From Desulfurellaceae bacterium (GTDB lineage Bacteria; Campylobacterota_A; Desulfurellia; JAGGSF01), in contig JAGMDW010000043.1 of assembly GCA_023128455.1 (NCBI GenBank), forward strand, positions 1 to 33,797: a DNA stretch of 33,797 bases, in the 5' to 3' direction. How positions within the stretch are numbered: the stretch's first letter is position 1; every line of letters begins with the position of its first letter. The position numbers were made by a program, and so were the translations under genes. Below the pieces are notes generated by a model. That model worked only from the letters and a program-made list of their open reading frames with translations. It did no database searches and had not been told where the DNA came from. Of this stretch, positions 12,028-18,124 are shown one piece after another.

Positions 12028-12068
12028 GGTTTGAAAAAGTTTATTACATATAGTAGGGTTAGTGCCCC

Positions 12069-12086
12069 CGCGGCAAGCCGCGTTTT
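12069..12086 (+). terminator. Probable intrinsic terminator downstream of gadB
   Basis: CGCGGC-aa-GCCGCG followed by TTTT. Confidence 0.55.
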
Positions 12087-12090
12087 GTTA

Positions 12091-12180
12091 TTCCGCACTT
12101 GATGCGGAATCTGGATTTCCGCATTCGCGGGAATGACAGAGGGAATGTCCCCCCGTACTTGACACGGTGGCGGGAATCTA
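12091..12180. repeat. Cluster of ATTCCCGC-type palindromic repeat fragments
   Basis: TTCCGCA-cttga-TGCGGAA at 12091-12109, TTCCGCATTCGCGGGAATGACA at 12117-12138, and a diverged CCCGTACTTGACACGGTGGCGGGAATCT at 12152-12179. Confidence 0.6.
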
Positions 12181-12263
12181 AATTAAGATTCCAGATATTT
12201 TGCTAAAGCAGAATTCCGAAATGACATCTGGTAATAGCCCGCTGCTTGCGGTGGATTTATTTA

Positions 12264-12304
12264 TTCGTTTTGACAACTCTCGTAGAGAGTTGCAAAAAAA
12301 CGAA
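12264..12304. repeat. Hairpin unit 1 of array
   Basis: TTCGTTTTG-a-CAACTCTC-gta-GAGAGTTG-CAAAAAAACGAA. Confidence 0.75.
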
Positions 12305-12310
12305 GTTTTC

Positions 12311-12338
12311 CTTGACAAGTGCTTACAACACTTGCAAG
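12311..12338. repeat. Hairpin unit 2 of array
   Basis: CTTG-a-CAAGTG-cttacaa-CACTTG-CAAG. Confidence 0.75.
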
Positions 12339-12341
12339 CAA

Positions 12342-12368
12342 CTTGACAACTACTTTAGTAGTTGCAAG
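12342..12368. repeat. Hairpin unit 3 of array
   Basis: CTTG-a-CAACTAC-ttta-GTAGTTG-CAAG. Confidence 0.75.
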
Positions 12369-12393
12369 GAAAATAACAAGGTCATTTTCCTTG
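12365..12393. repeat. 10-bp inverted repeat overlapping the end of the hairpin array
   Basis: CAAGGAAAAT-aacaaggtc-ATTTTCCTTG. Confidence 0.75.
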
Positions 12394-12418
12394 ACAATAA
12401 ACATAAAATATATATCTT
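12391..12418 (+). promoter_or_regulatory. Putative sigma70-type promoter of the trp operon
   Basis: TTGACA (12391-12396), 16-nt spacer, TATCTT (12413-12418). Confidence 0.45.
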
Positions 12419-12425
12419 TATACCC

Positions 12426-12479
12426 ATGAAAATGATATTTAAGGTTTGGTGGTGGGCAGTTAAACCTGCTCGCCGGTAA
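12426..12479 (+). CDS. trpL: trp operon leader peptide
   Basis: ATG AAA ATG ATA TTT AAG GTT TGG TGG TGG GCA GTT AAA CCT GCT CGC CGG TAA = MKMIFKVWWWAVKPARR*; three tandem Trp codons at 12447-12455 upstream of trpE. Confidence 0.88.
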   Translation: MKMIFKVWWWAVKPARR

Positions 12480-12500
12480 GTTTGAGATAAGTTTAACTCA

Positions 12501-12550
12501 AGCCGCTTGGCGCAGACAGGGAAAGGATGTCTGAGTCGGCGGCTATTTTT
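12501..12550 (+). promoter_or_regulatory. Attenuator-region hairpin T1 (terminator-like)
   Basis: AGCCGC(12501-12506)/GCGGCT(12539-12544) with inner CAGACA(12513-12518)/TGTCTG(12528-12533), followed by ATTTTT. Confidence 0.6.
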
Positions 12551-12555
12551 GTATG

Positions 12556-12591
12556 GGCTTGACGGCTTGGATGAGTCGTCAAGCCTTTTTT
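12556..12591 (+). terminator. trp attenuator terminator T2
   Basis: GGCTTGACG(12556-12564)/CGTCAAGCC(12577-12585) followed by TTTTTT, just before the trpE RBS. Confidence 0.85.
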
Positions 12592-12604
12592 GTTTGGAGG
12601 TTTT

Positions 12605-14017
12605 ATGTTGAATATGTCCGAAGGTGAATTTTTGGAATATCTAAAAAGTTTTGACATCGTCCCTTTATATGCAGATTTTCCTTGTGATACGGATACAGCT
12701 ATATCTATTTATTTAAAACTCAAAGATTATGGGGCCTGCTACCTTTTAGAGAGTGTAGAGAAAAGTAAAAGATGGGGCAGGTATTCTTTTATAGGATTTG
12801 ACAGATTGGAGACATTTTCCTTTAGCATTGGCGAAGATGAAAAGCCTTTATCTCTACTTAAAGATAGATATTTCTCCAAAAAAACACTCAAATTGAAGGA
12901 ATTGCCTCGTTTTTTTGGGGGTGGAGTGGGGTATATAGGATATGATTGTGCTTCTTTATGGAATAAGATTGCTTTACCTTCAGAAGACATCTATTCCCTG
13001 CCTGACCTTTGTCTTTTATTTACAAAGGCGGTTATCATATTTGATGATTTTCGTAAGACATTTCGCATAGTTTATGATGCAATGCAGCCTCAAGATTATG
13101 AAAAAGCAGAAAAGATGATAGATAAAATTCTGTCTCTCCTTCACCGTCCGTTTTCTTACGATGAGGGGGAAGGCAAATCTTTTCCTGTATCCACTTTACA
13201 CAGAGAAGCGTTTGAAGAGATGGTAAGAAAAGCAAAGAGGTATATAGAAGACGGCGAGATAATACAGTCTGTTTTGGCACATCACATTGTATGTTCAACA
13301 GATGTGTCTCCTTTTGATATCTATCGGACTTTAAGGAGGAGTAACCCCTCTCCTTATATGTTTTATATTGATTTTGATTCTTTTAAACTCATCGGTTCAT
13401 CTCCAGAAGTTCTGGTGAGATTGGAAGGAGAAACCATTGAAATCTCGCCTATTGCAGGTACTCGTCGCAGAGGCAAAACAAAAAAAGAAGATGAGAAATT
13501 GGAAAAAGAACTCCTTCAGGATGAGAAAGAAAAAGCTGAGCATTTGATGCTTGTTGATCTGGCAAGAAATGATGTGGGAAGAGTAGCGGAAGCAGGAACT
13601 GTAAAGGTAGAAAATTTCATGTATGTAGAGAAGTTTTCAAAGGTTATGCATATCGTTTCCGACATTAAAGCAAAAATAGAGAAAGATAAAGATATGTTTG
13701 ATCTATTTAGATCCTGCTTTCCCGCAGGAACGGTGTCCGGTGCACCAAAGGTGAGAGCGATGCAAATAATTGCAAGCTTAGAAAAAACAAGAAGAGGCCC
13801 TTATGCCGGTAGTGTGGGTTACTTTGGATATGATGGGAATATGGATATGTGTATCACCATACGCACCATTGTGTGGAAAGAAAATAAGGCATTTATTGGT
13901 GTGGGTGCGGGCATCGTTTATGATTCTCTCCCTCAAAGGGAATATGAAGAGACGATGGAGAAGGCATCCGCCTGCATCAATGCATTAGGAGAGGAAAATG
14001 ATATTAATGATAGATAA
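12605..14017 (+). CDS. trpE: Anthranilate synthase component I
   Basis: YADFPCDTDTAISIYLKL, SNPSPYMFYIDFDSFKLIGSSPEVLVRLEG, IAGTRRRGKTKKED, FPAGTVSGAPKVRAMQII. Start at the first ATG after GGAGG (track start 12590). Confidence 0.95.
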   Translation: MLNMSEGEFLEYLKSFDIVPLYADFPCDTDTAISIYLKLKDYGACYLLESVEKSKRWGRYSFIGFDRLETFSFSIGEDEKPLSLLKDRYFSKKTLKLKELPRFFGGGVGYIGYDCASLWNKIALPSEDIYSLPDLCLLFTKAVIIFDDFRKTFRIVYDAMQPQDYEKAEKMIDKILSLLHRPFSYDEGEGKSFPVSTLHREAFEEMVRKAKRYIEDGEIIQSVLAHHIVCSTDVSPFDIYRTLRRSNPSPYMFYIDFDSFKLIGSSPEVLVRLEGETIEISPIAGTRRRGKTKKEDEKLEKELLQDEKEKAEHLMLVDLARNDVGRVAEAGTVKVENFMYVEKFSKVMHIVSDIKAKIEKDKDMFDLFRSCFPAGTVSGAPKVRAMQIIASLEKTRRGPYAGSVGYFGYDGNMDMCITIRTIVWKENKAFIGVGAGIVYDSLPQREYEETMEKASACINALGEENDINDR

Positions 14018-14564
14018 TTATGATTCTTTTACTTACAACCTGGTTCATCTTTTAAAGGGAATGAAGAAAGGTGTGGATGTTATTTCCAACGATGAAAAAG
14101 ATTACATTCGGTGGGTAGAAAAAAGCGAAGCTGTATTCATCTCTCCCGGGCCTTCTGTGCCGGAGAATGCAGGCATTAGTGTGGATGTAGTGAGGAGGTT
14201 TTACAAAACAAAACCTATATTTGGGGTGTGCTTGGGTCATCAGGTAATTGTCTATAGCTTTGGAGGAAAGATTGTAAGAGCGAAGAGAATTGTGCATGGA
14301 AAGGCATCTCTTATCTATCATGCGGGTAAATACATTTTTAAAAATATTCCCTCTCCATTCAGTGCCGTCAGGTATCACTCTCTTTCTGTAAGCAGGGAGA
14401 ATTTTCCTTTAGAGTTGGAAATTTTAGCGGCGAGTGAAGATGAAGAGATTATGTCTATCAAGCATAGAAATTTTCCCGTGTATGGGGTGCAGTTTCACCC
14501 GGAGTCTATTCTTACAAAATATGGCGAAATGTTAATCTATAATTTTTTAGAGGAGGCAAAATAA
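13998..14564 (+). CDS. trpG: Anthranilate synthase component II (glutamine amidotransferase)
   Basis: MIDNYDSFTYNLVHLL, ISPGPSVPENAG, GVCLGHQVI, VQFHPESILT. Confidence 0.95.
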   Translation: MILMIDNYDSFTYNLVHLLKGMKKGVDVISNDEKDYIRWVEKSEAVFISPGPSVPENAGISVDVVRRFYKTKPIFGVCLGHQVIVYSFGGKIVRAKRIVHGKASLIYHAGKYIFKNIPSPFSAVRYHSLSVSRENFPLELEILAASEDEEIMSIKHRNFPVYGVQFHPESILTKYGEMLIYNFLEEAK

Positions 14565-15571
14565 TGTTGAGTAAATTGGTACAGGGAGAAAGTGTGAAAA
14601 AGGAGGAAATAAAATCGTTTTTGAAAGATTATCTTGGGGAGAGGAAAACAGAGGCAGAAATGGCCTCTTTCCTTACAGCTTTGCGAATGCGAGGGGAGAC
14701 GGCAGAAGAGATTGCAGCTGTGGTAGAGATAATGGACGAGGTGGCTATACATCTAAATTTAGACGATGAAATAAGAGAGAATGCCATAGATACCTGCGGT
14801 ACGGGTGGTGATGAGAAAGGCACATTTAATATTTCTACAGCCTGCGCTTTTATAGTAGCGGGGGCTGGTGTTTATGTGGCAAAACACGGCAATAGGGCAG
14901 TATCCAGCAGATGTGGCAGTGCAGATCTACTCAATGCTTTAGGCATAAACATAAACCTGGAAAAGAAAAAAGCAGAGAAGATATTAAAACAGGCAGGCAT
15001 TGTCTTTCTATTTGCCCCTTTGTTTCATCCTGCTATGAAAAAGATTGCTCAAGTAAGAAAAGCGTTGGGATTTCGCACCTTATTCAATATTATCGGACCT
15101 TTGCTCAATCCTGCAGGTGTAAAAAGACAGCTTATCGGCGTACCTTCTCAAGCAATGATGGATACTCTATCAGCTGTAATCAAACTCCTGGGGAATAGAA
15201 GAATAATGTTAGTAAATAGTATGGATGGCTTAGATGAGGTGAGTGTATGTGCAGATACGCATATTGCTGATGTAAACGGTATGTTTATAAAGAAGTATAC
15301 AATCTCTCCTGAGGATTTTGGTATAAAGAGATATAGATTAGGTGTTTTAAAAGGTGGAGATGTGGCTGAAAATACTTGTATTATGATGGATGTTTTAAAT
15401 AATAAAGGCAGTGCATATAGAGATGCAGCTTTAGTGAATGCAAGTGTTGCTCTCCTAACGGCGGACAGAGTAAAAAATCTAAAGGAAGGATACAAAATGG
15501 CAGAGTTATCCCTTGCAAGTGGCAAAGCAAAGCAAAAGTTTGAATTATTGAGGAAATTGAGCAATGACTAA
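14564..15571 (+). CDS. trpD: Anthranilate phosphoribosyltransferase
   Basis: DTCGTGGDEKGTFNIST, KHGNRAVSSRCGSADLLNALG, FNIIGPLLNPAG. Confidence 0.95.
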   Translation: MLSKLVQGESVKKEEIKSFLKDYLGERKTEAEMASFLTALRMRGETAEEIAAVVEIMDEVAIHLNLDDEIRENAIDTCGTGGDEKGTFNISTACAFIVAGAGVYVAKHGNRAVSSRCGSADLLNALGININLEKKKAEKILKQAGIVFLFAPLFHPAMKKIAQVRKALGFRTLFNIIGPLLNPAGVKRQLIGVPSQAMMDTLSAVIKLLGNRRIMLVNSMDGLDEVSVCADTHIADVNGMFIKKYTISPEDFGIKRYRLGVLKGGDVAENTCIMMDVLNNKGSAYRDAALVNASVALLTADRVKNLKEGYKMAELSLASGKAKQKFELLRKLSND

Positions 15572-16181
15572 AGTAAAAGTATGCGGTATTACAAATATAG
15601 AAGATGCAATGCTGTGTGTTTCTTTGGGAGCGGATGCATTGGGTTTTATCTTTTATGAAAAGAGCCCGCGTTGTGTAGATATTTATAAGGCTAAGGAAAT
15701 CTGCTCCAGGTTGCCCCCCTTTATTACCAAAGTAGGGGTATTTGTAAATGAAGATAAGAAAAGATTAAGAGATATTTTTTATTTTTCAGGATTGAATGTC
15801 GTTCAGCTGCATGGTGGAGAATCTGTGAATTATGTGTATAATTTAAAAGTATTACTGCCTGGTGTGCATATAATAAAATTTGCAAGAAATATGAATGAAG
15901 CAGAAATGTTTGCTCCTGTTGTAGATTCGTTTATTGTAGATAGCGGTGGAGGCACGGGGAAGGTTTGTGATTGGGAATTTGCCAAAAACTTGAGAGAAAC
16001 AATTTCTCTTCCTCTTATTTTAGCTGGCGGATTGGATGGAAGGAATGTAAAGGAAGCTATAAAAATGGTTCATCCTTATGCGCTGGATGCATGCAGCAAA
16101 TTGGAGAAGGAAAAGGGCAAGAAAGACAATGGAAAATTGGAAGAGTTTATTAAGGAGGTAAGAAATAGTGAAATTGCCTGA
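15564..16181 (+). CDS. trpF: Phosphoribosylanthranilate isomerase
   Basis: [55 protein letters not shown]. Confidence 0.93.
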
Positions 16182-17355
16182 TGAGCAGGGATATTTTGGT
16201 CCATATGGAGGACAATTTATACCAGAGACGCTTGTTTCCGTATTGGATGAGTTAAAACAGAAATATTTTAACATTGTTAAGAGAGATGATTTTCGAAAAA
16301 AACTCAATCACTATTTAAAAACATATTGCGGAAGACCTACACCTCTATATTTAGCGGAGAACATGAGTAGAGATTTGGGGTTTAAGGTCTATTTGAAGAG
16401 AGAAGATTTAAATCATACCGGTGCTCATAAGATGAACAACACATTAGGGCAGGTACTTCTGGCAAAATTCATGGATAAGAAGAGGGTTATTGCAGAAACA
16501 GGTGCGGGGCAGCACGGAGTGGCTACGGCAACAGCCTGTGCACTACTCAATATTCCATGCAAGGTATACATGGGAAAGATAGATTGTGTTAGACAAGAGT
16601 TGAATGTGTTCAGGATGAAACTGTTGGGAGCAAAGTTGGAAGTTGTAGAAAGTGGTTCGCAAACCTTAAAAGATGCAATAAACGAAACGATAAGGGATTG
16701 GGTAACGAATGCCAATGATACATACTATTGCTTAGGTTCGTGTGTAGGGCCGGATCCTTATCCTACAATGGTGAGAAATTTTCAAATTATAATCGGCAAG
16801 GAGACAAAAGAGGAAATATTAAAAGTAGAAGGTAGATTACCCGATGTGTGCGTAGCATGTGTAGGAGGAGGCAGTAACGCCATTGGACTATTTTACCCAT
16901 TTTTAGACGATAAAGTAAAATTTGTTGGAGTAGAAGCAGGAGGAAGGGGAGAAAAATTGGGTGAAAATGCCGCTACCATCTCCTTAGGTCAAGCAGGTAT
17001 ATTGCATGGAGCAAAGACATATATTCTTCAAGACAAATACGGTCAGATTATTCCTACCCATTCTGTGAGTGCAGGTTTGGATTATCCAGGAGTAGGGCCG
17101 GAGCATGTGTTTTTGAAAGAATCAGGTCGTGCTCGATATGAAGCTGCTACAGATACAGAAGCGTTGGAGGCATTTGAATATTTGAGTAAAATGGAAGGTA
17201 TAATTCCCGCTCTGGAGAGTTCCCATGCCATTGCCTATGTAAGAAAATTAAAGGGAAAGTTGGATAAGAATAAAATTGTGATAATAAATCTTTCTGGTAG
17301 AGGGGATAAAGATATGGGGATAGTGCGTGATTTGTTCGAGGCTAAAAATGGATAG
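16168..17355 (+). CDS. trpB: Tryptophan synthase beta chain
   Basis: [75 protein letters not shown]. Confidence 0.96.
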
Positions 17356-18124
17356 GATAAGAAAAAGAATTGAAGGGGCGAACAAAAATAACAGCGGCGC
17401 ACTCATCATATATGTAACTTGTGGTTTTCCTTATAAAGACAGCACAATTGATATTGTACGGGGTTTAGCGGAAGGGGGTGCGGATGTTGTAGAATTAGGA
17501 CTACCATTTTCTGATCCCATAGCCGATGGAAGGATAATTCAAGCGGCATCTCAAAGAGCATTGCAACAGAAGGTAAATACGGATGATTGTTTTTCAACGG
17601 TTAAGAAGATAAGAGAAAACAAAATAGATATACCTATTCTGTTTATGGGTTATTACAATACGATTTTTACCTATGGAGAGAAAAGATTTGTAGAAAGGGC
17701 AAAACAGGTAGGATTGGATGGGTTTATTGTACCTGATCTTCCATTGGAAGAATCAAAGGGGATGCTCGATTTATTAAAGAAATTTTCTTTAAGTATGCCG
17801 TTTTTAGTAACACCTACTACCACCGAAGATAGGATAAAAAAGATTGTCTCTTTATCCTCTGGTTTTGTTTATCTTGTGCCGCGCCTGGGAATAACAGGCG
17901 AAAAGACAAAGGATTTATCTGCGGCTCGTTCCCTGGTTCAAAAGGTAAGAAAATATACCTCTTTGCCCATTTGCATAGGATTTGGGATAGAGAATAAAAA
18001 AGATGTAAATCAGATATTTTCTTTTTGTGAAGGGGCAATCATCGGCAGTAAATTCATACAATTTATAGAAAAAAACCCCTCTCCTGAAAATGCTCGTTTA
18101 TTTGTAGAAAAATTATTATCTTAA
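17348..18124 (+). CDS. trpA: Tryptophan synthase alpha chain
   Basis: [52 protein letters not shown]. Start at ATG 17348 overlapping trpB (track start 17327). Confidence 0.95.

Follow-up and report, generated by a model that had tools for sequence, protein, structure and literature searches.

REP sequences and BIMEs are short palindromes of 20-50 nt that are dispersed between genes, occur in pairs and in tandem copies, and are presumably mobilised in trans by a Y1 HUH protein encoded in single copy (PMC8266576). Insertion sequences of the IS200/IS605 family insert 3′ of a target of 4-6 nt, TTGAT for ISDra2 (PMC2806898), and carry guide sequences complementary to their cleavage sites (PMC8266576). 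PATEs are non-autonomous, heterogeneous derivatives of IS200/IS605 that have lost the transposase (PMC3119063). Rickettsia palindromic elements occur within unrelated coding genes, where their insertion keeps the reading frame (PMC10969869), and the mitochondrial double-hairpin elements of fungi (Allomyces and others) are mentioned in a passage of PMC5910586 that refers to Paquin et al. 2000.

The hairpin array studied here lies in a window of 33,797 nucleotides, which is contig C164 of a 1.23-Mb, 225-contig Desulfurellaceae genome (G000), and we judge its element to be a new variant of small mobile palindromic elements. The genus was sampled with three genomes, G000 itself, G001 and G002 (AUK015), all of them fragmented MAGs studied by sequence analysis alone; the TrpD protein of the window is 90% identical to one in JAGGSF010000042.1 of the AUK015 genome. 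An earlier note on this DNA had drawn three bulged hairpins with one unpaired A at the same place in each. Both features are present in the sequence as quoted, the hairpins at 12268-12297, 12311-12338 and 12342-12368. The 151 nt from 12250 to 12400 fold at -48.3 kcal/mol, as against -26.9 ± 3.7 kcal/mol for 200 dinucleotide shuffles (z -5.7), and none of the 200 was equally good.

The repeated unit is larger than had been drawn and consists of two abutting hairpins, TTGA^[CAA-stemA-TTG][CAAG-stemB-CTTG]A (Table 1). Hairpin A is formed by CAA, stem, loop and TTG, and hairpin B by CAAG, stem, loop and CTTG followed by A; a single bulged T is common in hairpin B, and the length of the element is usually 42-60 nt. 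The pairing of TTTTCCTTG with CAAGGAAAA described earlier is present, while the term alternative fold for 12365-12393 understated what is there: CAAGGAAAATAACAAGGTCATTTTCCTTG forms hairpin B, the second one, of the last unit in the array, and a hairpin B, or a remnant of one, occurs in nearly every unit of the family. The outer pairing TTG-a-CAA...TTG-CAA is that of the left target with the central CAA, which pairs alternatively with the right TTG inside hairpin B. Back-to-back hairpins were also scanned for generically; the noise was too high for element counts, and the scan served only for reading the feet.

Table 1. Features of the hairpin array and the adjoining trp promoter and leader in the window
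Feature	Position	Strand	Basis
TTGA, leftmost target site, left of the array	12270-12273	+	sequence
Element 1, 42 nt	12274-12315	+	sequence; covariance-model match
Element 1 hairpin A, CAACTCTC-GTA-GAGAGTTG	12274-12292	+	sequence
Element 1 decayed hairpin B, CAAAAAAACGAAGTTTTCCTTG, then A	12293-12314	+	sequence
Element 2, 31 nt	12316-12346	+	sequence; covariance-model match
Element 2 hairpin A, CAAGTG-CTTACAA-CACTTG	12316-12334	+	sequence
Element 2 minimal hairpin B, CAAG-CAA-CTTG, then A	12335-12345	+	sequence
Element 3, 48 nt, complete	12347-12394	+	sequence; covariance-model match, E 6e-7
Element 3 hairpin A, CAACTAC-TTTA-GTAGTTG	12347-12364	+	sequence
Element 3 hairpin B, CAAGGAAAAT...ATTTTCCTTG, then A	12365-12393	+	sequence
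trp promoter -35, TTGACA, shared with the right end of element 3	12391-12396	+	sequence; conserved in L094 (G001) and L061 (G002)
trp promoter -10, TATCTT	12413-12418	+	sequence; conserved in L094 (G001) and the array-free L061 (G002)
trp leader peptide MKMIFKVWWWAVKPARR, three Trp codons (context, outside the element)	12426-12479	+	translation; conserved in L061

The earlier note had considered that the genome and its relatives might hold no further units, and this is not the case. The pattern TTGACAA-N-TTGCAA occurs 26 times in G000, 49 times in G001 and 10 times in G002, and the reversed control pattern in none of them; outside the genus, matches are few, scattered and non-palindromic. A covariance model built from 16 units detected 38, 57 and 15 places in G000, G001 and G002, respectively, some of these being the same place counted once per strand; because arrays often fall at contig ends, the copy numbers are minimum values. 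The model gave no credible match in 22 other genomes of the class, where one match had E 0.003, and none in 236 other genomes searched at a threshold of E 1e-4. Rfam returned no match at gathering scores, and two pattern scans of IMG/VR viral contigs found no element. Larger nested palindromes are seen at L109 and L110 (e.g. TTGTCAAGTAAAAGTTTTGACAAAACTTTTACTTGCAA), where elements seem to be inserted into one another or inverted.

We then considered the stems. The 72 parsed units contain 45 distinct A sequences and 54 distinct B sequences. In 16 units of equal length, 95.6% of the pair cells are standard, and 34 cells are doubly changed as against 9.5 in shuffles, a number reached in 0 of 500. 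Exchanging arms among distinct units lowered the pairing from 93% to 61-62%, and from 92-95% to 57-59% when one unit was taken per distinct left arm; these covariation figures are not strict probabilities, since related sequences have a common history, and the effect is large. The compensatory pattern claimed for the three window units is thus borne out across the family. In the stems, structure is conserved over sequence. The conserved fold is most likely the feature by which a mobility machinery recognises the DNA in single-stranded or cruciform form; the recognised unit would be the hairpin fold plus its feet, because the stem sequence is almost free yet complementarity is kept.

Orthologous flanks were compared across the three genomes, the filled and empty pairs coming from genomes about 97% identical to each other. 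In L100 (G001), 47 bp, CAACTGTCTATGACAGTTGCAAGCAAACACCAGAGGTGTTTGCTTGA, follow TTGA and are absent from L164 (G000); the downstream flank is colinear, and upstream the two sequences run colinear for about 38 nt before they diverge. L112 carries 48 bp after TTGA that L170 does not have, with colinearity on both flanks. This site is within an rsmA-type gene (PF00398), which stays open with the element and gains 16 residues (258 vs 242 aa). A third insertion, of 42 bp, is found in a coding gene at L216; it is missing from L233, where both flanks are colinear, and also from G002. One gene (L215, L229, L235) contains two, one or no units of 42 nt, each worth 14 residues. The 14-residue unit SGQLPSSYQQMEHL derived from the element has two copies in G001 and one in G000 and is missing from G002, an instance of protein repeats being added by a mobile hairpin. 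The trp promoter has three, one and no units in G000, G001 and G002, respectively, the upstream flanks in G002 being too diverged for an exact empty site.

At the three filled and empty sites, the insertion lies 3′ of a target that is short and fixed, and the target site is otherwise unchanged; a target duplication of 3-4 nt would look identical, since the element ends in TTG(A). The cut falls after TTG or TTGN, and L113 and L216 each fit one choice only without a point mutation. The first TTGA of every array is directly followed by CAA, so that the first junction is always TTGACAA, and the last junction is TTGANN (TTGACA 33 times, TTGATA three times, TTGAAA twice, and four others). This is expected if the element starts with CAA on the left and ends with TTG(A) on the right. 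We hold with some assurance that the hairpins are copies of a very short mobile DNA element, and not an RNA or operator array. The array of the window would then represent three tandem insertions of a non-coding element restricted to the genus. The element enters directly after a TTG(A) target, as seen at three sites, and its own TTGA right end restores that target, as is observed. Further insertions could stack on the regenerated target, as the tandem arrays suggest; some tandem arrays are clearly later tandem duplications. Copies in genes would be tolerated where the reading frame is kept.

The last arm of the array had been proposed as the source of the trp-promoter TTGACA, and we confirmed this, the -10 sequence TATCTT starting at 12413. 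A -10 match (TANNNT-type) at a spacer of 16-18 is present at 35 of the 42 array ends with terminal TTGA, as compared with 7.3 of 42 on average in shuffles and 10-18% of other TTGA sites. The arrays are stacked on -35 boxes in one orientation. The box of the empty allele L164 is already promoter-like (TTGATT-17-TATAAT), which indicates that a promoter was there before the element inserted and was rebuilt by it. Since the right end is TTGA, the target is regenerated, and a -35 box that has been hit remains TTGANN at the right distance from the -10. The genes downstream of arrays are unrelated and include tRNA-Met, Val, Gly and others, trp, and many more. Candidate reasons for the hits on -35 boxes are the letters of the box, local opening of the DNA, or survival after selection.

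The majority of copies have TTG on the left, CAA in the centre and TTG on the right. A subfamily in coding genes has TGG/CCA (L215, L216, L229), and a single copy, the second element of L216, has CTG/CAG/CTG. In the L217 copy, TTG/CAA is kept and the feet of hairpin A are changed compensatorily to CGA/TCG. The target and guide pairs TTG/CAA, TGG/CCA and CTG/CAG thus vary together, over about four loci of one subfamily and few independent changes. These joint changes of target and guide suggest an IS608-like guide-target pairing. The central CAA(G) can base-pair either with the right TTG, in hairpin B, or with the TTG of the left target, around hairpin A; it probably serves as an internal guide and selects the cleavage sites in the manner of IS608.

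Of the reading in the earlier note, the covariation of the stems and the conservation of structure over sequence are borne out. A regulatory site of fixed position, be it a folded RNA or a set of bulged protein sites, is not supported, since the units are polymorphic insertions with exact empty sites, some are in frame within coding genes, and unit number and sequence differ at orthologous promoters. An RNA or attenuator function was rejected as the primary role, because units upstream of the -35 lie outside the transcript of that promoter. Integron attC-like sites were discarded as well: there are no cassettes between the units and no attC boxes. It is unlikely that the units form a regulatory array in which protein-bound bulged palindromes, or a cruciform, control the adjacent downstream promoter. 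The abutment of 35 of 42 arrays on a -35 box in one orientation would fit such control, as would the orthologous promoters that keep arrays in two or three species, but arrays are absent from orthologous promoters with the same -35/-10 (L061, L164, L163, L178), copies sit in coding genes, the downstream genes have nothing in common, and there is no conserved core beyond the feet.

Two further explanations dispense with transposition. Tandem slippage combined with hairpin-templated (quasipalindrome) repair in place would account for identical tandem copies, such as the six 48-nt units of L103, and for drifting stems that stay complementary. However, a complete unit with exact TTG(A) borders does not arise in this way at a unique site far off, nor would the same stem types recur across loci and species, as they do here, and we regard this explanation as highly improbable; such processes may act on copies after insertion. 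We give even less credence to the idea that homologous recombination or gene conversion between arrays has spread the units. In its favour, contigs frequently end in arrays, and at L007/L115 and L021/L099 the upstream flank is wholly changed and the downstream flank colinear between genomes about 97% identical (L009/L160 is alike, and the arrays at these three pairs look like rearrangement or assembly break points). Yet the empty sites L170 and L233 are colinear on both flanks, L164 has about 38 colinear nt upstream, and only 3-4 nt of homology are available for insertion at these three sites. Several points count against the mobile-element reading itself: stems as variable as these are uncommon in a family that has transposed recently, no enzyme is tied to the elements, the target/guide covariation comes from few loci, the position of the cut is ambiguous, and the genomes are fragmented.

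Mobility is most likely via single-stranded or cruciform DNA, with cleavage by a putative HUH-type enzyme acting in trans. One orthologous PF01797 (Y1) gene, fused to a Bac_DnaA_C domain, is present in all three genomes (L127, L128, L129), and G000 only has an extra, intact Y1 gene. Where a class relative has NNHYHILL, the shared protein has NSCFHLL (HYH vs CFH): the first histidine of the HUH motif is Cys in all three species and intact in class relatives, so that a metal ligand is missing. No elements flank this single-copy gene at the Y1 loci of the three genomes, the Y1 loci found carry no element-like ends of a complete IS encoding TnpA, and relatives of the protein occur also in class genomes without elements. 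The shared Y1/RAYT protein was rejected as the mobilising enzyme, its HUH histidine being missing and its gene unlinked to the elements; for these two reasons the element is not filed under REP/RAYT. A search for an IS91-type Y2 transposase gave no match in these genomes, and the controls likewise gave none.

Like REP/BIME with TnpA-REP (RAYT), the elements are high-copy short palindromes, often in tandem and mostly intergenic. They differ by having feet of TTGA/CAA and no GTAG-type foot tetranucleotide, by stems that are hypervariable instead of family-conserved, by the TTG(A) target that the empty sites reveal, and by the lack of a cognate intact tnpA-REP flanked by elements, the shared Y1 having lost one HUH histidine. 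Hairpins at both ends and insertion 3′ of a short target are shared with IS200/IS605 (IS608, ISDra2) and PATEs; unlike IS200/IS605, the element is about 45 nt in total, the feet of its hairpins border the junctions without a linker in between, both ends seem to be served by a single central guide, and no related complete IS was found in the genomes searched. In-frame copies in genes recall the Rickettsia palindromic elements, which are about 150 bp and family-conserved in sequence, whereas ours are 42-48 nt and mostly at promoters. The mitochondrial double-hairpin elements reportedly consist of two hairpins placed back to back, tens of nucleotides in size, for whose mobility there is evidence, and we know of no guide/target covariation in them. 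They resemble our elements, by analogy only, in having two adjacent short hairpins with evidence of mobility, and are organellar and not known to target -35 boxes; common descent is unlikely. By analogy, the element can be said to work like REP/BIME or a PATE and to be built like the fungal mitochondrial double-hairpin elements.

Our confidence is high for the mobility of the elements and modest for a single-stranded, guide-directed mechanism. As a tentative and somewhat doubtful scheme, a single-stranded DNA element of about 45 nt would be recognised by its fold, one guide triplet would set both cuts and could mutate to retarget the element, and the restored end would lead to accumulation at -35 boxes. 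To our knowledge, the spread of REP-like palindromes is an unresolved question. Here a very small element displays exact insertion polymorphism between near-identical genomes, its fold is kept while almost every stem base changes, and its entry into promoters leaves the -35 box intact; recognition by structure only and guide-target pairing become testable with short oligonucleotides.

Downstream of the array, 12426-12586 has the layout of a classical trp attenuator, with the leader peptide followed by a terminator-like hairpin at 12555-12586; conservation of the leader and the promoter extends to L061 and L094. The trp operon (12590-18124) has the order E-G-D-F-B-A, with no trpC (indole-3-glycerol phosphate synthase) among its genes and an overlap of trpD and trpF. 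Just upstream of the array, 12060-12200 holds a second, unrelated dispersed repeat of the ATTCCGCACTTGATGCGGAATC...CGGGAATGACA type, and a sequence resembling it is also found near L094 and L109.
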